Assembly (NCBI GenBank): GCA_025449115.1
Contig: JAHLKC010000141.1
Coordinates: forward strand, 44,159 to 108,158
Length of the DNA: 64,000 nt
Direction of reading: 5' to 3'
Source: Chytridium lagenaria
Lineage: Eukaryota > Chytridiomycota > Chytridiomycetes > Chytridiales > Chytridiaceae
Below are positions 41,661 to 61,717 of the stretch, piece by piece (position 1 is the first letter of the stretch; each line of letters starts with the position of its first letter). The position numbers and the translations under genes were made by a program. The notes under the pieces are model-generated. The model made no database searches and had not been told where the DNA came from. It saw nothing but the letters and a program-made list of their open reading frames with translations.

Positions 41661-43264
41661 ATGCCACCAAAGTATAACAGCCAACCTCCATTCAAACGTC
41701 CAAAATTCATTCAAACGCGTATCGGTTAGTGCTATGATTTAAACTCAACCCATCCTCTGACTATTTATCAGCAAAGACGAAAGTCCGTCCACCCACCGCC
41801 AGGATGCCGTACTTTCTGGTTTATTCAGGGACAAGTGCCAAAAGAGACTCTTACAAAGATTCTCAAGTGGACCGGTGATTTGGACGTCTGCGTGAAACTG
41901 GAATCTCTGATTCTAGGACTTCCTTTGCAGCAACGGGATCCTTGCAATACCTTTGAGGGTATCAGCATTTCCCGATTTCCTGCTTCACAAGCCTTTGTTA
42001 ATGTGAGGTTCCTGAAGGCTTATCTCGCCTCTCATTCCATCCAGAACCTCGGTATAATCGCACTCTCCTGGATGTTACAATACTCTCCCGATTTTTGGGA
42101 TGAAAAGGCTGTACAGGAGATCGCTCTGGCGGGACGTGCAAGAGCAGTGAAGATGGTTTTTGCAAAATGGAAATCTACTTTAAATGTTTGGCTTGGAGTA
42201 CGTTTAGGTTCATTCTTTCCACCTACTAGTGAAAAATCGGTCGCTATAGCCGCTCGTTCAGGAAATCTTGAGCTTGTGAAGTTTCTATATAAGAAGCGAC
42301 TTCAAGTCAAGCCAGATTCCTTAAATGATGTGACAAACGAAATTTGTGCAGCAGCAGAGACAGGCCATTTGGGCGTCGTCCGTTTTTTTTGTGAGCCCCA
42401 AGTCGGCTATAGACATAACCCTGAAATCAAAGGCAGGTACGATACCTTTGTGTTTTTTGTTTTTTTTTTTGTTTTTTTTTTTTTGTTTATGGTTCATTCT
42501 ATTTACAGAGTCGGACATGCGATCGCCTACGCAGCTGAGTTTGGACACCTCAACATTGTCCGATATCTTCATCGTCGGTCATCTGTTACAGTTTTACTTG
42601 ACGCTTTGGACCGTGCAGCAGAAAAAGGACACCTTGATATCGTTCGCTTTTTAAACAGTAGCATGATAGAGCCAGCAAACGCCCGAGCTCTAGATTTAGC
42701 CCGCTCTAACAAACAAGACGCTGTGTATGAGTACCTTCTTTATCATACAAACGCAAAATGTTCGAACGATTTGTTGTGTACTATACTAGAATCTCCTGAC
42801 CCCTATCCGATGCTTCCGAAAGTAGTGGATCGTTTTGAAGATTCCTACATCTCTCAGCGAGCGATCGAACTTGCCGTCCGGACAAAAAAGTTGGAGGTCG
42901 TTCAAGAACTCCTCAGATGCGATGTTGGAGTTAAATGGGGGAATGCCATTGACTTGGCTGTTGAATTGGGGCAGGAAGATATGCTGGAATTATTTTATGA
43001 CGTCTTTGCAGCACAGCCTACCCGTGAAAGTGTAATAGACTTGTGGGCTGAGTTGGGTCAGGTTAAAGGAGTGAAATATATGGAGAGTAGAATGAAGTGT
43101 CAGACTACATGGCTTGCTATGATCTACGCGGTATCGAATGGGCATTTTGAGATGGTCAAGTATCTCTTGGAGAGTCGAGGTTACCAGGTGTATTCTTCCT
43201 ACATACAGGAAGCGAAGAGTGTGGGCATATGGAGATTCTAGAGTTCTTAAGAAGGTGTTTGTAA
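41661..43264 (+). CDS. F-box-like/ankyrin-repeat protein
   Basis: Exon 1 (41661-41724) encodes MPPKYNSQPPFKRPKFIQTR; an intron at 41725-41802 with a GTTAGT donor joins it in frame to exon 2, which opens with an F-box-like helix, VPKETLTKILKWTGDLD. Degenerate ankyrin repeats follow: IAARSGNLELVKFLY, AAAETGHLGVVRFFC, AYAAEFGHLNIVRYL, RAAEKGHLDIVRFLN, ELAVRTKKLEVVQELL, DLAVELGQEDMLELF, YAVSNGHFEMVKYLL. A T-rich intron (about 42436-42509) splits the repeats. The final repeat, with HMEILEFLRRCL and a TAA at 43262-43264, needs a one-base frame change near 43212; otherwise the stop is at 43239-43241. F-box plus ankyrin architecture suggests a ubiquitin-ligase adaptor, inferred only. Confidence 0.75.
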
Positions 43265-45839: not shown

Positions 45840-48393
45840 TTAAACAAGGAGTGCCTTGAGTTCCTCACGCGCCTCATTCGCGGTAATGAACGAAGCATAA
45901 GACCAAGTCAAATCCTGCACTCCGAGTCCATTGGCGGTACCATCCGACCTGAGGTACTGCTCACCAAACCTAAAGTTGATGTCTCCATGAAGCTTGGTGC
46001 GACGAATGTGAGAGTCAGCGAGGGAGGCGAGACCGTCCACAATGGCCTTGAATTCGGGGGTGTCCTTGGTGTAGGTTCCGAGGGCAATGTTGCCAGCTTG
46101 AACACCAGCGGGACGGCTAGAGGTGAAAAAGGCGCGGTTGAGAGGGGTGACGGCGACTTTGCCCGATTTGATAAAGTCAATGGCGGCGCGGTAGTAGGTC
46201 TCGCCGACAGCGTTGGTGGTGAGGTACCAAGGGTTACCCTGGGAGTTACCGAGACCGTTGTAGGTGTCACCATAGTAACGACCAATGGCGTAGGAGAGGG
46301 GGAGACCAGAGCCGTCAATCAAGGGACGAGAGTTGAGGGCGTATTCGGTAGCGAAACCACGAGAGAATTGGAAGAGGGAGTTGAGGACACGGTCGTCAGC
46401 GGGACCGTAGACACCGTCATTGTTGTAGGCGTGGTTGGCAGTGAGGGCAATGGCAGCATCGAGCTGACGAGCGTTGAGGGTGGTCATGAGGGTGTTGACG
46501 CTGGGGTTCCAGTATTTGGCGACTTCGGCATCACGGGTTGCGGCGGCGGCAGCGTACCTGGCAGCGGAGGCAGTGTCACCGAGGAAGGTGGCGAATTCGG
46601 CACCCTCCTTGAAGGCACGACGCTCAGACATCTGGGTGAAGAGTGGAGACCGCGTTGCTCTTCCCAAAGATCACATCCATCAGTGACGCCGAGCTTGGTA
46701 ACGCCATAGTCGAGATCGGGCTTGATGACACCAGATGCGGTGCTGTTGTAGAGCTCGACGACACGGGTGAGGGAACCGCCCTTGGCGAGGAAGGCCTTGG
46801 CGAAACGGATGAAAAGGGAGGCCCGGAGTGCTGGGCCATCGTTTTGCGGGCGGCACCAAGGGCCGTTGAAAGGTTCACCGTTGACAAAGTACTTGGGTTC
46901 ACCAAAGCCACCAGCAGAGTTGAGCTTGCCCTGGTTGATCTTGGTGACAGACTGGAAGTCCCAGAGCTTGGACTCGAGGGCGACATCACCGTCCTTGTAA
47001 AGGTTGTTGATCACGTCCATGACAAGGGAGGCGTCACGGATCCAGTGGAAGAAGTAGCTCTGCTGACCGGCTTGGATCTTTGGGGCAGCAACGACAACAC
47101 CCCTGATGGTCTCAGCGGGGGAGATGTTCTTGTAGAGGTACTGCTTGATGGATGGGAGAGCGGCGGCGAACCAGGAGGTTATATCGGCAGCGAGACCACC
47201 AGCGATGGGCGGAGCAATGGTGGCGGTGATGGGGTAGTTCTTGTCAGGTCCACCGTTGCTGTCATAGTAAGAAACACCATTCACATCGTACTTGACGTAA
47301 AACTTGCTACCAGTACCAGCGTTGGGGAAGGAGCCGAGGAAGGTCCACAACTCGTAACCGTTGGCAGCAGAGGAAGAGTAGGTGGCCGTGGTTGAGGCTC
47401 CCTCGAAAACTCCAGAAGCAGAAGACGCAATGATGGTGACAGCCTTGCTGAAGGCAAGGTTCTTGACCCACACACCACCAGACAAGGCACCACCGATGAA
47501 AGAGTACTCCTTGACGAGGACGGGGGCACCATCGGCGGCGGGGGGAGCGGCGCTGATGACGGTCACGGCGGGTTGGGGAGGCTGAGTGGAAGTCGGGCTT
47601 GGTTTAGAGGTGGTGACGGCGGTGGTGGAGGTGACGGTGACAGGGGGGGAGGCGGCGGCACAGTAGAAGTAGGAGGAACGGTGATTGCCCTGACGACATA
47701 GTTCTTTGCAGCATTGTTGTCGTAGTAGTTTTGGCCCGAGACGGTGTACTTCAAGTAGAACTGGCTGCCAGCAGCAAGAGCAGCAGGGGAAGACGAGAAG
47801 GACCAGACTTCGAAACCGTTGGTGGCGGGACCAGAGTAAGCCGCATCAACCTTGTTGGCAGTGTTCCATGCGAGCGCCGGGGTAGAGTAGAAGAGGTTGA
47901 CCACCTTGTTGAAGGCAATGTTGCGAATCTATTATTAAAGGATATGGATTTGTCAGATTGGAATTGTCATGAGAAATGTCAAAAAAAAGAGGGCAAGCAA
48001 GCAGGTGACCACCTCCTCCAAGCAATCAACAAAAGGGGGTCCCTTTGTGAGAGAGGGAAATGGATGACTGGAACAGAGATGGAAGCCTTACCCAGATGGA
48101 ACCACTAAAGACACCAGTCTCAGCATCGTAAGAGTACTGCTGGAGGACAACGTTGCCAGAGGTGGGAACGTTGGGAGAAGTAACGGTGACGAGAGCAGCG
48201 CGGCGACGAATCTAAGGAAAAAAAGGAAAGAGAGAGGATAAGTGTAAGTAAACATTATGAAAGAAGAATAAAAAGAATTGTAAAAAGAAAGAAAGGAAGG
48301 GGATGCACGAAGTAGGAGACTCACGTCAACCGAGTCAGCCGAGACAAAAGAAACAAAGGCCACAAAGGCCGCGATCAAGAATGAGCCGCGCAT
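45840..48393 (-). CDS. Secreted glucoamylase (GH15) with two CBM21 starch-binding domains
   Basis: Exo-acting glucan 1,4-alpha-glucosidase releasing glucose from starch or glycogen. Exon 1 encodes a signal peptide (MRGSFLIAAFVAFVSFVSA, ATG at 48391-48393). Introns at about 48210-48325 and 47932-48092 follow. The first CBM21 is at about 47690-48200 (YSYDAETGVFSGSIWIRNIA; FYLKYTVSGQNYYDNN); a Pro/Thr linker follows; a second CBM21 is at about 47250-47530 (YSFIGGALSGGVWVKNLAFS; FYVKYDVNGVSYYDSN). The GH15 catalytic domain is at 45840-47200: FHWIRDASLVMD, GCDLWEE (general acid Glu) near 46650, and GEQYLRSDG with the general-base Glu near 45955, followed by DLTWSYASF. One-base frame changes sit in the G7 run at 47643-47649 and near 46637, probably consensus errors because the surrounding domains are otherwise perfect. 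Confidence 0.92.
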
Positions 48394-52118: not shown

Positions 52119-52259
52119 TCGGTGGTAGAAGCAAGATCGTCATTTAGATGAATACAAATAAAATAACCCTGATGGGGCGTGAGATGAGTGGGGGGGTCGG
52201 TGGTAGAAAAAAGAGGATCGTCATTTAGATGAATAGAAATAAAATAACCCTGATGGGCG
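52119..52259. repeat. Direct repeat pair of about 61-63 bp
   Basis: Copies at 52119-52179 and 52197-52259 both read from TCGGTGGTAGAA through ATCGTCATTTAGATGAATA to AAATAAAATAACCCTGATGG with a few differences, separated by 17 bases. Confidence 0.8.
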
Positions 52260-53239: not shown

Positions 53240-53468
53240 GTATGCGTATAAGTGGGGTACATACTTTTTATTAGAGATAAGAGTGTAGAAAGAGTTTCAT
53301 ATCTTTTTGTAACATTGCAGCGAAACAACAAAAGAAGCTCATTTACAAGTGATAGAGGGGTTTTTTTTTGTCTCGCCAAATATGACTATGTACAAGAGAC
53401 TGTGTTTCTATCTATGAAGAGCCTTGTGGGCTGACGTTTGGTTTTAATGAAAATTGTGAAACTACGGC

Positions 53469-53500
53469 CTCCTACCACGTATCCGAAGGTATGGTAGGAG
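53469..53500. repeat. Perfect 9-bp inverted repeat at the other LTR edge
   Basis: CTCCTACCA (53469-53477) and TGGTAGGAG (53492-53500) pair perfectly across a 14-base loop, 14 bases in from the LTR terminus. Confidence 0.85.
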
Positions 53501-54388
53501 TTTCGATAGGACTAGTACCTTCTAATGGTACATAGAACGTCTACACATAAATAAATAAAGTTTAGTGTACTTGACAAAGATAAACAATGTCCAGAGCATG
53601 AAAAATGGAGCTCAATGATGATCAGCGGGAATAAACGAAGGTAAAGGGAATAGGGGTGGATACAAGCACGGGACCAGAAATAAAGGATACTTAGCTGCGG
53701 TGTTTTCAAGAAGTCTTCCTACAACCATTTTTGCCCATTCCGTCGATCATCGCGGCGGTAAAGGCGTTTCCTTAGCGTTCCCGGTGCTAAGGGCAATCTC
53801 TAAACCCGAAACGACGATGACGAGGGGAAGCTGCGTTGATACCCATCTCACCGGCCGTGAGCCGAAGGGGGGTTGCTGATCGGGCTTTGCAGCAGCCGAT
53901 CACCCAACGCCACGGAACATACGCGGTGTGTCCGAGGACCTGACGGAGGCACCTTCTGGTAAGACTACTTAATACTAACCTTGGTGCCAGAGGTAGGCGC
54001 GTGTGTATGCGAGAAGACCTGGACCTGGACCTGGACTAGGACTGGGGACAGGTTTTGGGATGGACAAACTTCTCTATCTTTATTTGTAAGACCCTCTCGC
54101 TCAACATAAACATAAACAAAGAATAAATAAACATATAAACAATGGTATAAATGAGCGAGGGGATAAAGAAGAGATATATACAAAATAAAACAAAGTCCCA
54201 AGATACAAAAGGGCGGTAAACAGGGAAAACCCGACGGCGACATATATACAATGCCGTGGGAAAACCTGAATACCGTATAAGGTAAGTTAAGACTTACCAT
54301 GACGAATCCTAAAGACTTCGTTAGTGTACAAGCAGGAGGGGGTAAAAGGAAAAGCCGTACATATAGCATCTTGGGAAATATGCTTACG

Positions 54389-54416
54389 GTGAAATATCAT
54401 TTATTGAATATTTCAC
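54389..54416. repeat. Perfect 9-bp inverted repeat at the LTR outer edge
   Basis: GTGAAATAT (54389-54397) and ATATTTCAC (54408-54416) are perfect reverse complements with a 10-base loop. It sits right at the LTR terminus, where integrase must bind. Confidence 0.85.
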
Positions 54417-54417
54417 A

Positions 54418-54430
54418 TTCTCCCGGTTTT
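54418..54430 (-). promoter_or_regulatory. Polypurine-type tract at the 3' LTR boundary
   Basis: On the minus strand the sequence AAAACCGGGAGAA ends exactly where the LTR begins with TGTG. This is the place of the plus-strand primer for LTR element reverse transcription. Two C residues interrupt the purine run, so GGGAGAA would be the core. Confidence 0.65.
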
Positions 54431-54482
54431 TAAGTTAAGCCCTAATGGGGCAGAGGGGACTTAAACCAGAAAACAAGATGAG

Positions 54483-56187: not shown

Positions 56188-57000
56188 TTAGGATCTCCGT
56201 AGGATCAACGTCTCAGGCCATCGTTCATCTTCGAACAGGTCCTTAGTAGAGAACCCAAAACGGAGATCGGCGGGCGTTAAGGCCTCGCGACCAAACATCA
56301 AAAGGAAGGGGGTTTCCTGAGTACCAGGGTGGACAGTCGTCCTATAAGCAAATAGGATGTAGGGTAAAAGCTCATCCCAATCGCCGTGGGTATTCTGATC
56401 AATGTAAGCGCGGATCATCTGACATAGGGTTTTATTAAAACGCTCGACCAAACCATTAGCGCGGGGCCAATATGGGGCAGAAAAGGATTGATGGAAGCCC
56501 AAGATTATACTAACCTTCTTCATCAGTTCACTCATGAACTGTGAACCTTGATCAGAGTGCATAGTAATGGGGACTCCATACCTACAAAAGCATTCCTCGA
56601 CGATAACGCGAGCGAACGGTGGCTGCTTCAATATCGGGGACTGGAAAAGCATCAGCCCATCGGGTGAAGTAGTCGGTAAGGACGACAATGTAGCAATTAC
56701 CTCGAGTACTGGAGATAAGAGGTCCTAGGATATCAACTGCACTCTATCCATGGTTTATGACCAAAGGGGACAGGTCGAATGGAACCTGCACGAAGGGGTA
56801 TATCTTTATTCGTTGGCATGAGATACAGGAGGAGACGTGATTACGAAGGTCACGAGAGATGGTAGGCCACCAATATCGATCAAGCGTGGTAGGTAAGATC
56901 TTCTGATCACCTAAGTGTCCAGAAAAGAGGTCGTCGTGGACTGAATGCACACAGCCTCGTGAAGAGGGCGAGGTACACAGAGTGAGACCCTTACAGGCGA
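56188..57000 (-). CDS. Integrase zinc-binding and catalytic domains of the Ty3/gypsy pol
   Basis: The HHCC zinc domain lies at about 56840-56955 (HSVHDDLFSGHLGDQ ... YWWPTISRD ... CISCQRIK). After a frame change near 56750 the DDE core follows: the first Asp in VDILGPL near 56730, the second in MHSDQGSQF near 56550, and the Glu in NGLVERFNKTL near 56440, with the family's 35-residue-type spacing. APYWPRANG and GDWDELLPYILFAYRTTVHP are typical of Ty3/gypsy integrases. It follows a linker (QRQDPDYKEV near 57140; SLCVPRPLHEAV near 56970) like that normally joining RNase H to integrase. This shows that the unusual nuclease module was inserted exactly at the RNase H-integrase joint. Confidence 0.9.
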
Positions 57001-57123: not shown

Positions 57124-58609
57124 CTAAGAATTCATTACCTCCTTATAATCAGGATCTTGCCGTTGAAGTTCACGGAAATGTTCAGGAGTCTCACGGAAGA
57201 GATTGAACTCACTAGTAAGTTGTGGGAGTTCTTGTCGACGTTGGTATCCATCATTAGCCATTATTTCTATCAGAGAAGGTAGGGAAATGTCATCATACCT
57301 GGGGTCAGAGTTGGTCTTCATAGTAAAATGAAGGGCGGCATGGTCGGTGAGTCCATTAGGGTGACTGTGATCAACGCGCCATGATGAGGGTAAGTCAGCA
57401 TCAATAAGGATGTAATCTATCCGCCAAACGGGCTTGAACCGTTGTTGGGGATTATACCAAGTGAAGCCAGGTGATGAGGGTGACGTCTCTCTAAAACCAT
57501 CTTTGAAACCAAGGCTCAAGAGCTTTGTAAGCCATTGACGTTCTTCAGGTAAGAAGCCAGAGATGTGTTTATAGATATGAGGGGCACTAACATCTTTGTA
57601 AGTATGGGCGATGTTGAGATCGCCGGCGATAATGACGTAACCCATATTACGTAACTTTTTATTGAAGTCATAAAGCAGATAGGAATTGCATCTTATATTC
57701 CTGTCGATGAACAAGTCGGGTGCCGTTGGGGACATAAACGTTAACAACACTCAGATAGGGAAGTTGAACAGTAAGGCATCTACCTTCTTCTCCATAGGAG
57801 CCGATCTCAGGAGTTTCATCAGGATTATAAGACTTACTAAGGTCTAAACCTTGGATTACCTTTAGGATGGGGATATCATCCCTGATCATGGTCATTACTC
57901 CATTTCGTCCAGGTTGGTTGGGTTCATTGAATAATACATGCCAACCAGGTGTGTGCTTAAGTGCGTTGCGCATCTTATGGTCTCCAAGCATTGTTTCTTG
58001 GAGACACACAATAGAGAAGTTCTCGTTGTCAAGGTATTGTGTGAAGAACTCGATTTCATCAAGCTCCATGCTTTCCTTCTTATGATAATAATACTTCTTT
58101 AAGAATGCACGGAAGGAATTAACATTCCAACTTAGGATTCTGAAATCCTGATCAATGTAGAGTGAGGTGGCTACCTCAGGTAGAGGCCATAGTATCTCTA
58201 AGTTACGAGCCTCATTCAAACAAAGTTCAATGGGAAGTTCTGGTCTTGAATGAAAACTAGATGTGATGCCGTAAGTTTGGCGTAAAGTCTGTTCGTTGAT
58301 AAACGACTTAATTCGCTGTATCTGGAGGATTGGGAAGGCATAACACTTGCTAAATCTTTCAGATAGAGTCCCATAAACATCATATGGTTCTGGGAGTTGG
58401 CCTGGTGAAATTGAAGGTCCTACAGAGAGTACATGGCTAAGGTAGCCATCCTCGTGAGAAAAGATCCAGAGGCGTATTGCACCAGGGATATCATGTTTTT
58501 GGAACTCATAGCGACGTGATCCACTAAGGAGCTCATCAAGACGTTGTTTATTTAAACTCAATAGATAATCAGTGGGGATATCACTAGCTTCTTTTTGAAT
58601 CACATTCAC
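57124..58609 (-). CDS. ASCH/PUA-like domain fused to exonuclease III/AP-endonuclease-family nuclease, inside pol
   Basis: Two domains in one pol segment. The first (about 58250-58590) reads DYLLSLNKQRLDELLSGSRR, YEFQKHDIPGAIRLWIFSHE, then AFPILQIQRIKSFI and LRQTYGI. The G-x-R-x-x-E-F start and hydrophobic strand pattern fit ASCH/PUA-like folds. The second (about 57290-58150) has all exonuclease III hallmarks: RILSWNVNSFRA (Asn), VCLQETML (metal-binding Glu), VNVYVPNGT, YVIIAGDLNIAHTYKDVS (catalytic Asp/Asn), GFLPEERQWLTKLLSLGF, WRIDYILID, and LTDHAALHF (Asp-His). A one-base frame change near 57670 splits it. The GFLPEER and RIDY blocks look closer to bacterial XthA-type enzymes than to non-LTR retrotransposon endonucleases. 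Likely roles are abasic-site or 3'-end processing during cDNA synthesis or integration; this is inference. Confidence 0.85.
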
Positions 58610-58629
58610 AAAGGTCTGACCGTCAGGGT

Positions 58630-58644
58630 CATTCTCCCGGTTTT
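58630..58644 (-). repeat. Internal copy of the polypurine/LTR boundary sequence
   Basis: The 15-base word CATTCTCCCGGTTTT (plus strand) at 58630-58644 is identical to 54416-54430, which spans the polypurine tract and first LTR bases. It lies between the RNase H and ASCH domains. Confidence 0.8.
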
Positions 58645-60644
58645 CAAGAGTGACGTCCGCAACGGACGAAGGGGAGGAGTGGAAAAGAGACCACGATTGA
58701 GAGAATGGCGACGACCAATGTAGATGGTGTCGCTATGAAGGACATAGTCGGGGGGGATCTCATCAATAGGGGCATTGGGAGGGAGGGTATCCTTAAAGGC
58801 GCGTGAGAGGGCATCAGCAACAGCTTGACTTTTGCCAGGAGTGTGAACAAGCTCAATATCATGATCATGTAAAGCATACGCAAAACGCGCAAAACGACCC
58901 TTAAGGTCGCCGCGTGCAAAGAGTGGGAGAAGAGCAGAGTGATCAGTCTCGATCCGATAAGAGGTATTCCACGTGTAGTGGGAAAAGGTGTCGGCAGCCC
59001 AGACAACAGCAAGGCCTTCACGGTCGGTGTTGGAATAGTTTTGCTCAGTATCAGATAAGGTGCGGGAAGCAAAAGCAACAGGGTGGTAAATACCATTATC
59101 GTTGATGAAAAGGGCGCGCCCATGCCATATTTAGAGGCATCACAGGAAATAACAAGCTTATCACCAGCAACAGGAAGACGGCACGTGGTGTGTTGTTTAA
59201 GAATCTTAATTATAGTATTAAAGGAAGATTGACAGGAGTCAGTCCATACAAATGGTGTGTTGGTTTTCAAAAGAGAGGTGAGAGGATACGCGATGTCAGA
59301 AAAGTTGGGAACAAAGCGACGGAAGTATTGGGTGAAGCCAAGGAAGGTAGAGATATCCTTGGCGCACTTAGGAAGAGGATATTCATCTAAAGAACGAAGT
59401 TTCTCAGGGTCGGCACTTAAACCATCTTTGGAGACAACATGACCAAGAAAGGGAAGGACATGAAAGCAAAAGAAACACTTCTTTGGTTTAAGCTTGAGAT
59501 TATATTCACGAATACGATCAAATACCATACGAAGGTTGGTAAAGTGAGTATCGGTGTCATGAGAGAAGATGATAATATCATCAATGTAAACCATGCAAAT
59601 AGACCATTTGAGTCCAGCAAGAACGAGGTCCATGCACCGTTGGAAGGTTGGAGGGCTGTTAGTGAGGCCAAAAGGCATGACTTTGTATTGCCATTGACCA
59701 CCAGACGTGACAAAAGCGGTTTTGTGTCGGTCACTTTCAGGGATCTTAATCTGCCAAAAGCCAGATAAGAGGTCAAGCGACGTAAATAAGTGCATACCAG
59801 CCAGACGATCAAAGGTTTCGTCAATGCGAGGGAGAGGGTATTTGTCTTTGACAGTCACCTCATTGAGCCGACGAAAGTCGGTACAGAACCTGAGGGTGCC
59901 ATCTTTCTTCTTGGCGAGGCAAACGGGAGCGGCATAAGAGGAGCGCGCAGGTTCAATGATATCGTCGTTAAGCATCTGTTCAATATGAGACTTGATAATC
60001 TTAGCACGTTCAATGCCCTCAGGATATGGGGCAGAATTGGGAGGACGAGCATAAGGCTTTGTTTCAATAGTGTGTTCACCAGGAGATTTGGTTGAAGTAA
60101 CAACATGGGGATCAAAGATGTCGCGATATTCAAGAACGAGTTTATTAAGCTGATCAGTTAAAGTAGAATCAGTGATGTGAGAAAAGTCAAATTGACGTAA
60201 AAACTCGTCATCGGAAGTGACGGGAGGGTCGCGAAGATAATCCATTTTGTCTTCTTGGGACGTGTCCTTAGTTCGCATACGAACTTTAGGATCGGGGGAA
60301 GGTATAGCATCCACAGAGAGAGGAATGTCTTCAACGGAGATCGCGTCAACGGTGTCAGAGTCCAGAGTAAAGGAAAACATCTCATCCAGAAGGGGAGATG
60401 CGGGTGGGCTAGGTAAGTGAGTATGAGGTTCACAATTACTGAGAGGGTGAGTAACCAATGGTGGAAGCGAGGCAACAGCAGTAAGGGTAGAAGCCAGAGG
60501 GGACTCAGTGACAGGAGTCGGGGAAGGAGAGATGTGAACATCCGATGGAGAGGAATCGGTAAGGTTGCAATAATGTGTGTAAACATCGTGGACAGAGTTG
60601 AGCTCGGGATGAGAAGACAACTCTTGGATGAGGGATAACATCAT
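58644..60644 (-). CDS. Reverse transcriptase and RNase H of the Ty3/gypsy pol
   Basis: RT core at about 59400-60060: PYPEGIERAKIIKSHIEQML, SSYAAPVCLAKKKDGTLRFC, TDFRRLNEVTVKDKYPLPRI, LFTSLDLLSGFWQIKIPESD, VMPFGLTNSPPTFQRCMD, and the active-site box VYIDDIIIFS near 59580. The connection has FLGHVVSKDGLSADPEK. RNase H begins near 59170 with ISCDASKYGMGA (first Asp). A one-base break at the C run near 59118 shifts the remaining RNase H into another frame, where DREGLAVVWAAD and IETDHSALLPLF carry the next acidic residues and VADALSRAF closes the domain. N-terminal to RT is a spacer with Ser/Pro-rich and acidic stretches. Confidence 0.93.
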   Translation of the reverse strand: MMLSLIQELSSHPELNSVHDVYTHYCNLTDSSPSDVHISPSPTPVTESPLASTLTAVASLPPLVTHPLSNCEPHTHLPSPPASPLLDEMFSFTLDSDTVDAISVEDIPLSVDAIPSPDPKVRMRTKDTSQEDKMDYLRDPPVTSDDEFLRQFDFSHITDSTLTDQLNKLVLEYRDIFDPHVVTSTKSPGEHTIETKPYARPPNSAPYPEGIERAKIIKSHIEQMLNDDIIEPARSSYAAPVCLAKKKDGTLRFCTDFRRLNEVTVKDKYPLPRIDETFDRLAGMHLFTSLDLLSGFWQIKIPESDRHKTAFVTSGGQWQYKVMPFGLTNSPPTFQRCMDLVLAGLKWSICMVYIDDIIIFSHDTDTHFTNLRMVFDRIREYNLKLKPKKCFFCFHVLPFLGHVVSKDGLSADPEKLRSLDEYPLPKCAKDISTFLGFTQYFRRFVPNFSDIAYPLTSLLKTNTPFVWTDSCQSSFNTIIKILKQHTTCRLPVAGDKLVISCDASKYGMGAPFSSTIMVFTTLLLLLPAPYLILSKTIPTPTVKALLLSGLPTPFPTTRGIPLIGSRLITLLFSHSLHAATLRVVLRVLRMLYMIMILSLFTLLAKVKLLLMPSHAPLRIPSLPMPLLMRSPPTMSFIATPSTLVVAILSIVVSFPLLPFVRCGRHS

Positions 60645-61717
60645 TGGGATGTCATCGGATAACGCTTGAGGTAAGCGGAGGAAGAGGGAAGGAGCTTCGC
60701 GAGGATCGTCACGATGTAACCGAGACGGGTACCCTGAGCAATGAATAAGTCAGAGTCGGAGATACTGCGAACCATAAGAGGTAGGGTGTAAGAAGCTGAT
60801 TCAGGGTCAGTGAGGTCTGGAGGGCAGAGCTCGGCATGAGGGACACGAGTGCGAGGCACAAGAAGACCACGATCAATATGAGATGCAATAGGATTTATTA
60901 TATAATGTGATAAAGGAGCGTCGGGAGGACGCGTCAAGCGACAAGGAATAGGCATCTCAGAGTGGGGAGAGATAGTAATATCAGAAGAGGCAACAACGGC
61001 AATGTGAGGATTGGGGTGAACAAAGGTAGGAGTTGTTGCAACCAATTGAAGGGGAGTGATGAAAGGAGTAACAACATCATTACCGGCGGCATCAGGGCAA
61101 AGGGACCAGAACCGGAGGATCTCTTGACTACCTAGCAGATCCATCAAGAAATGGTTGATGGTAGGTGTACCAAGGATGATGTCTCGAGGACACTTGCGGA
61201 CGACTTGGAATTCTAAAATGGCTTTAGCACGATAGTCAGAGCCAGGGGATATAGATAAATAACAACGACCAATAAGAGGTTCACGGCCACCAACACCTGT
61301 AGAGTAGAGTTGACGGGTGTGAGGACGGAAGTGAATAGGAAAGGTCCTATTGTGGAGTTGCTTAAGGTAAGATAAAGAGATAACATTAGCGTTAGAGCCA
61401 GAATCAAGTAAAGCATTTGTAACAAACGTACCATGGATGCGGGCGCAGATTTGAGCTACCGTGTGTTTATCACGAGTCGGTAGGGATTTTGGGACCACGT
61501 CCACAATAACGGGATCGGTTTGCGTAGAGGTAGTTTGATTATCCTTAATCGTAGACGAAAGTGGTGAGGGAGAGACCATTGCATCCGACAGGGGAGCGTT
61601 TGGTTCAGAGGCGGCGGTATCAGACTTGATGACGGAAGCCACCGAGGATATGGAAGGAGAACGTGAGACGCGAGGTAGAGTTGAGAGAAGCGTTAACCAC
61701 TCAGACCGTTGAGACAT
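60641..61717 (-). CDS. Aspartic protease segment of the Ty3/gypsy pol
   Basis: After a Ser/Thr-rich N-terminus, the retropepsin-like domain runs from about 61460 to 61130: HGTFVTNALLDSGSNANVIS carries the DSG active site, and CPRDIILGTPTINHF is the ILGT-type C-terminal motif. A frame change near 60715 separates this from the RT frame; the two frames overlap by four bases around 60641-60644. The break may be a consensus error or a genuine frameshift site. Confidence 0.82.
   Translation of the reverse strand: MSQRSEWLTLLSTLPRVSRSPSISSVASVIKSDTAASEPNAPLSDAMVSPSPLSSTIKDNQTTSTQTDPVIVDVVPKSLPTRDKHTVAQICARIHGTFVTNALLDSGSNANVISLSYLKQLHNRTFPIHFRPHTRQLYSTGVGGREPLIGRCYLSISPGSDYRAKAILEFQVVRKCPRDIILGTPTINHFLMDLLGSQEILRFWSLCPDAAGNDVVTPFITPLQLVATTPTFVHPNPHIAVVASSDITISPHSEMPIPCRLTRPPDAPLSHYIINPIASHIDRGLLVPRTRVPHAELCPPDLTDPESASYTLPLMVRSISDSDLFIAQGTRLGYIVTILAKLLPSSSAYLKRYPMTSQ

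Follow-up and report, generated by a model that had tools for sequence, protein, structure and literature searches.

Enzymes of the exonuclease III type clear abasic sites and blocked 3' ends, and retroelements are thought to leave abasic-site cleavage and the 3'-end repair of their cDNA to the host. In some lentiviruses a dUTPase sits at the joint between RNase H and integrase. Other nucleic-acid enzymes captured by LTR elements include, besides dUTPase, an archaeal-type second RNase H and an AlkB-type m6A demethylase (available text of PMC6431247, PMC5348765 and PMC9289625); these belong to families other than the one considered here, and none is an AP endonuclease. In the portions of the literature available to us, the extra domains named for fungal LTR elements are chromodomains and complex nested insertions (PMC3248453), an AP-endonuclease is mentioned for Helentrons (PMC6431247), and an article that covers chytrid Gypsy elements names an apurinic endonuclease for LINEs (PMC9926174).

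Here we report on an element in a 64 kb stretch of the Chytridium lagenaria genome (the window), which is almost certainly a broken member of a large Ty3/gypsy group that has acquired, in pol and at the joint of RNase H and integrase, an Xth-family nuclease (exonuclease III/APE1/ExoA type), accompanied in several families by a single ASCH-fold domain or a pair of them. With the chromovirus-like Ty3/gypsy elements the group shares the order of reverse transcriptase (RT), RNase H, H2C2 and rve domains, the LTRs, the polypurine tract and the 4-bp target duplication, and the locus L028 has a chromodomain match below the cut-off; the group differs from those elements in the Xth-family nuclease and the ASCH-fold domain or domains at the RNase H-integrase joint. 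The first-pass annotation of this DNA knew of no description of such an architecture, and our survey agrees: no LTR element with ASCH or ExoIII was found in the literature searched, a scope that leaves aside subscription papers, Repbase and bioRxiv, and the architecture is absent from the available portions of PMC3248453, PMC9289625, PMC6431247, PMC5348765 and PMC9926174.

The window copy

The pol copy lies on the minus strand, where Pfam matches and a predicted fold give the domain order RT, RNase H, ASCH-like, nuclease, H2C2 and a piece of rve. The ASCH-like and exonuclease III module that the first-pass annotation had placed between RNase H and integrase is present there, on that strand, and the motifs GSRRYEF, LQET, GDLNIAH, WRIDY and TDHAA are all legible in its translation. 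The features are as follows.

53455..54417, minus strand: 3' LTR, beginning TGTGAAAT (repeat search, query position 4) and ending TTTCACA at 53455
about 54418..54435, minus strand: 3' polypurine tract adjoining the LTR (sequence)
56467..56601, minus strand: integrase core (rve) piece (Pfam PF00665, 9.9e-6, 26.2 bits, below the cut-off of 32.6)
56804..56950, minus strand: integrase H2C2 zinc-binding domain (Pfam PF17921, 5.1e-15)
57340..57687, minus strand: Xth/ExoIII nuclease, C-terminal half, in its own frame (PF03372, 7.8e-9, profile 131-225; TIGR00633 130-234)
57746..58135, minus strand: Xth/ExoIII nuclease, N-terminal half (PF03372, 1.5e-6, profile 1-116; TIGR00633 2-131)
58187..58576, minus strand: predicted ASCH-fold domain (AlphaFold2 model with Foldseek/VIA-align)
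58631..58649, minus strand: internal polypurine-tract copy at the module start (17/19 bases)
58867..59103, minus strand: RNase H domain (Pfam PF17917, 8.6e-21)
59436..59912, minus strand: reverse transcriptase (Pfam PF00078, 5.4e-33)
61328..61444, minus strand: weak aspartic protease-like stretch (PF13650, E 0.027, 15.6 bits, below the cut-off of 24.3)

The copy is decayed, since its pol domains and nuclease halves sit in different frames: frameshifts have left RT, RNase H, both module pieces and integrase each in a different one, and near 57.67-57.75 kb the nuclease breaks into two overlapping frames. Contig C141 stops at the right end of the window, which comprises its final 64 kb, so that the 5' end of the element is missing; no gag was found by Pfam in two upstream frames of the window. 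The 3' LTR has 40 related places in the same genome by repeat search.

The internal polypurine-tract match (17/19) compares with 14 at the 95th percentile of 100 codon shuffles, and the near-identical copy L009 shows the same 17/19. The match is 15 in L016 and 14 in L028, both within the RNase H-nuclease stretch, and at chance level in L013 (12) and L012 (13); in L010/L011 the best match (16) lies far upstream. The internal copy is placed as a central polypurine tract might be, and is weak or unseen in other families. Elsewhere in the window we observed a glycosyl hydrolase 15 frame at 46487-47845 on the minus strand (1.5e-22, plus a sub-threshold CBM_21), an ankyrin-repeat frame at 41730-43238 on the plus strand (5e-22) and a 56-bp direct repeat (52121-52176 and 52202-52257, 88% identity, spacing 81).

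Other copies in the genome

Used as query against the genome (42 Mb in 356 contigs), the module frame of 354 residues returned 86 matches, several of them within long open frames, which excludes a chance occurrence. Twenty stretches around these matches were taken, and the four longest module-bearing frames were scanned with Pfam. L011 encodes RT, RNase H, Exo_endo_phos (3.4e-19), H2C2 and rve in a single frame of 1604 aa; L028 encodes the same series in a single frame of 2572 aa (Exo_endo_phos 5e-12), with a weak chromodomain match (Chromo, 20.7 bits against a cut-off of 25.1); the L025 frame holds RT-RNase H-nuclease and the L013 frame nuclease-H2C2-rve. The rve match exceeds its cut-off in L011, L028 and L013. 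The contiguity of RT, RNase H, ASCH, nuclease and integrase that the first-pass annotation proposed to check holds for L011 and L028, in which RNase H-ASCH-ExoIII-integrase forms one uninterrupted frame, but not for the window copy, which frameshifts have broken.

Counted as lower bounds and as places rather than independent events, some being near-identical duplicates (e.g. C11/C137), H2C2 occurs at 84 places in the genome, TIGR00633 xth at 117 and RNase H at 82; Pfam ASCH has 0 places in the whole genome at E <= 1. Pairing by strand and distance puts an xth-family nuclease just upstream in 48/84 H2C2 places, always with a gap of 280-587 bp; RNase H and then xth lie upstream in order in 30 of the 84, and in 18 the xth match has no RNase H within 4.5 kb. 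Another 26 have the ordinary joint, with RNase H directly upstream (gap 199-496 bp) and no xth, and 10 have neither.

The distance from RNase H to xth in the 30 ordered places varies with the ASCH-like content of the copies read. Six gaps (157-334 bp) are too short for an ASCH domain; 11 (721-949 bp; 726 in the window) correspond to one ASCH-like segment in the copies read, and eight (1216-1331 bp) to two in those read (L028, L025, L036). The remaining five (503, 595, 1491, 1582 and 1592) reflect, at least in part, late-starting matches. After merging, 29 of 77 xth places have no H2C2 within 2.5 kb downstream; of those read, L040 and L042 are fragments of elements and L039 is a host exon resembling an AP endonuclease. 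The latter, on C26, is the sole non-element Xth-like match read that resembles a host AP endonuclease; it is broken up, probably intron-bearing and APE2-like by eye, and introns may hide others. EndoIV/Apn1 (PF01261) has no match in the genome.

The nuclease

The NCBIfam xth model (TIGR00633) scores 151.3 bits in L011, 155.5 in L013 and 127.8 in L028, against a curated cut-off of 99.05. The closest solved sequence is the exodeoxyribonuclease 5cfe (9.2e-28), with further ExoIII and APE1 entries, and the model of P0006, a protein of Phlyctochytrium bullatum, superimposes on an ExoIII homologue with a target-normalised TM of 0.87. The active-site N and E are each present in 13/13 rows and the Y in 14/15 (the exception is a fragment row); the D and N of GDxN are kept in 13/13, the D of WRIDY in 12/12 and the D and H of the last motif in 11/11. 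Profile, fold and active site together bear out the exonuclease III identity first read from the motifs. An endonuclease of LINE type is ruled out, the xth model being above its cut-off while PF14529 stays below 27.4 bits (18.3 in L013, 16.0 in L025, 21.3 in P0006); the non-LTR APE-type endonuclease is related at the level of the nuclease superfamily, but here it is the xth model that matches, and the target duplication is of 4 bp, as made by integrase.

With ExoIII, ExoA and APE1 the element nucleases share passage of the curated cut-off, the active site and the fold; they differ in residing in a retroelement polyprotein and in the loop before WRIDY. In the ASCH-type clade, taken to include L032, all 10 rows that could be scored have 13 residues in this loop; the two L029-type rows (L029/L030) have 14, with NVG kept, and 142/142 scorable non-element relatives have 16; a further 90 proteins did not fit the pattern. 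In APE1 this loop contacts DNA at abasic sites, and its shortening by three residues means that the specificity of the element nuclease may have changed.

In the nuclease tree, a check proposed with the first-pass annotation, eight element nucleases (five from this genome, P0005, P0006 and P0125) form one clade with SH-aLRT 100, and the C half of L032 joins it with support of 96. L029 is a very long branch, and a single clade with the other element nucleases is not rejected (AU test p 0.516). Among viral contigs, two loci match the nuclease part of the module; on the IMG/VR contig L038 an ExoIII-like protein of 298 aa is encoded close to a frame of 1075 aa (ORF listing).

The ASCH-like domain

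The AlphaFold2 model of window positions 58157-58597 (pLDDT 80.7, pTM 0.77) has a predicted ASCH/PUA-like fold, with ZmASCH as the best structural match by both Foldseek and VIA-align. The Pfam ASCH profile matches 0/6 module members, and a profile search of the PDB from the ASCH alignment returned nothing. The ASCH/PUA-like segment of the first-pass annotation is thus upheld by predicted fold and not by sequence-profile match, and the name 'ASCH' refers here to a predicted fold and a partial motif, not to a sequence profile. Measured against the motif form GxKxxxxR (available text of PMC5615036), L011 (GNRRYEFR) and P0009 (GNRKVEYR) conform except that R replaces K, and the window (GSRRYEFQ) and others are incomplete.

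The domain resembles ASCH proteins such as ZmASCH and TRIP4/ASC-1 in predicted fold and part of this motif, and differs from them in lacking a profile match and in being fused to a nuclease within pol. Among known members, ZmASCH cleaves single-stranded RNA and YqfB, an ASCH protein, acts on N4-acetylcytidine (available text of PMC5615036 and PMC6972931, respectively), and structure comparison shows the fold to be common to YTH and EVE readers; the ASCH fold alone says little about function.

Other species and selection

A profile of seven modules from this genome was run against 5.8 billion proteins, and the best 120 of 8000 scored candidates were considered. The best among the matches listed is P0005 of Irineochytrium annulatum (1.6e-78, nuclease only); P0006 of P. 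bullatum (3.9e-76) has ASCH-nuclease-H2C2, P0007 and P0009 are also from P. bullatum, and cellular exonuclease III follows the chytrid proteins. Both species belong to the Chytridiales. A further search yielded P0125 and P0126 of P. bullatum, the latter comprising the RNase H end, an ASCH-like segment and the nuclease. The architecture is also seen outside this genome, a check that the first-pass annotation had proposed: P. bullatum shows both module borders, on different partial proteins, and I. annulatum has the nuclease. No full-length pol of another species was found with P0001 residues 790-1300 among proteins of 882-2807 aa.

By the NG86 method dS was defined in 9/18 comparisons and undefined in 9/18, and across the nine usable ones dN/dS was low, at 0-0.29. 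Between L013 and L016 the ratio is 0.20 for ASCH, 0.10 for the nuclease and 0.11 for integrase; for the nuclease it is 0.02 between L013 and L021 and 0.14 between L016 and L021. L011 and L010 give 0.29 for ASCH and 0 for both the nuclease N half and RT, and L011 and the window give 0.25 for ASCH (dS 2.0, near saturation). ASCH changes faster than the nuclease, yet by point estimate stays below neutrality in every usable pair; some element copies are decaying.

Nuclease without ASCH

In a distantly related gypsy clade the nuclease occupies the RNase H-integrase joint with no ASCH beside it, which may reflect a separate capture. L029 (C11) encodes RNase H, Exo_endo_phos (5.7e-14) and H2C2 in a single 653-residue frame, with no ASCH-like segment between RNase H and nuclease, and its RT is only 26-31% identical to the RTs of the window's clade; L032 (C135) also has no ASCH-like segment, yet shares 60-64% RT identity with that clade. 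The integrase of L035, a nuclease-less element, is nearest to those of L029/L030 (35-41%), and when L035 is aligned with L029, the RNase H and H2C2 matches are separated by 41 residues in L035 and by 322 in L029, the pattern expected of an insertion at this joint. Firm groupings in the RT tree are limited to the two with support of 100 (L029-L031 and all others) and the L014 group. The WRIDY loop lengths of 13, 14 and 16 lean towards two captures, and the AU test on the nucleases is compatible with a single clade.

Insertion mode

Paired LTRs are 98.1% identical over 966 columns at C95 and 98.25% over 972 columns at C63. In the window family, sampled at 11 places (10 solo-LTR places and the C63 element), exact 4-bp duplications were found by script at 6/11 (C44, C219 and C114, C45, C23 and C25(+)), where C219 and C114 share flanks and are one duplicated locus; visual inspection added C133 (CACG) and C25(-) (CGCG), whose LTRs begin with variant bases. 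No target duplication was seen at C346 or C63, and C74 was unscorable. The script found 5/10 in the L011 family, namely C33 (TCTA), the C39 solo LTR (CTTC), C53 (TTAC), the C50 element (ATAT) and the C39 element, where the duplicated bases are As (1 to 5 of them); visual inspection adds C159 (CATG) and C206 (GTAT, one base off the LTR end, with flanks that resemble a tandem array), with no clean duplication at C15 or C66 and C82 unscorable. With target duplications mostly of 4 bp, ordinary integrase insertion seems the rule. The integrase-independent route that the first-pass annotation had offered is not borne out as the usual mode, given these duplications and the integrase domains in long frames.

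At C95 a 216-bp direct repeat (L043:512-727, L044:618-834; 97.7% identical) abuts both LTRs, and the 5' LTR is short of about its first 9 bases, a configuration unlike the 4-bp duplications at other copies. L011-family LTR pairs on the same strand, 1.8 to 5 kb apart, at C33, C206, C212, C82 and C39 suggest short non-autonomous derivatives.

Discussion

Our structural and comparative data suggest a model in which the nuclease acts on the element's own cDNA. Placed after RNase H and ASCH and before integrase, and with its active site kept, it probably works while cDNA is being synthesized or shortly afterwards; we favour cDNA processing because RT and integrase are both impeded by abasic sites and by 3' ends that are blocked or untidy. 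The nuclease would be made and packaged together with RT, RNase H and integrase; it would cut the cDNA at abasic sites and strip blocked or over-extended 3' ends to leave a clean 3'-OH, which RT could extend and integrase could join. The ASCH domain would hold the nuclease on the RNA/DNA complex, and the insertion step itself would fall to the ordinary integrase. We give this explanation as a whole, architecture and cDNA processing together, a probability of about 0.5; the functional part, a nuclease that clears abasic or blocked 3' ends with ASCH as its anchor, we advance tentatively, at slightly short of even odds.

A precedent comes from HIV-1, for which host APE1 is one of the three DNases of the SET complex and its knock-down raises autointegration and lowers both integration and HIV/SIV infection (available text of PMC2644782). 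The promotion of HIV-1/SIV infection by APE1 shows that an enzyme of this kind can be of use to a retroelement. The authors of that work place the role of APE1 in the suppression of autointegration, not in the clearing of cDNA, and the element nuclease might by analogy guard the preintegration complex against suicidal autointegration, as the position of the module beside integrase would suit. This is the first of the rival readings, and an unlikely one: MLV infection was not significantly lowered by APE1 knock-down (PMC2644782, available text), so the need for APE1 is not general. The module also directly follows RNase H, and the fold nearest to its ASCH domain is that of a single-stranded RNA nuclease, ZmASCH. 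ExoIII enzymes themselves possess RNase H activity. Nuclease and ASCH might then help RNase H to remove RNA, whether primers or template remnants, but the elements retain an RNase H domain of their own, the ASCH motif is kept only in part and the nuclease is also found without ASCH, and we consider such a role unlikely too, ranking it behind the suppression of autointegration.

That the ASCH domain might recognise modified or damaged bases in the nucleic acid of the element and steer the nuclease to host marks there, as counter-defence, is suggested by the fold it shares with YTH/EVE readers and by the action of YqfB on N4-acetylcytidine (PMC6972931, available text); with no host mark known here and a nuclease that exists without ASCH, we hold it to be improbable. 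Still less credible is target nicking, in which the nuclease would provide an integrase-independent insertion route as the non-LTR endonuclease does. The C95 copy, with its 216-bp repeat on both sides and its 5' LTR about 9 bases short, could be read in this way, but 4-bp duplications were found by script at 6/11 and 5/10 places in the two families and at more by eye, rve is above its cut-off in L011, L028 and L013, and the nuclease is of xth type with the LINE-type PF14529 below cut-off. Had only the window copy been at hand, broken and at a contig end, a functionless passenger gene, a nested insertion or an assembly artefact might have come to mind; the same joint at 48/84 places, the long single frames, the P. 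bullatum junctions and dN/dS of 0-0.29 in nine usable comparisons leave that reading next to no probability. A nested gene or assembly artefact is ruled out by the first three of these.

Returning to the processing of cDNA, it is possible, if somewhat doubtful, that at least two captures of an ExoIII-type nuclease took place, in two gypsy clades with RT identity of 26-31% and at one and the same RNase H-integrase joint, and that duplicated ASCH domains were added later, as a selected cDNA repair or end-processing step. To our knowledge, a selected function of this kind has not been described for LTR elements. The list of enzymes captured by LTR elements (dUTPase, second RNase H, AlkB) is extended by an ExoIII-type nuclease, and elements with their own APE1 relative offer a natural system for asking what such a nuclease does for a retroelement.
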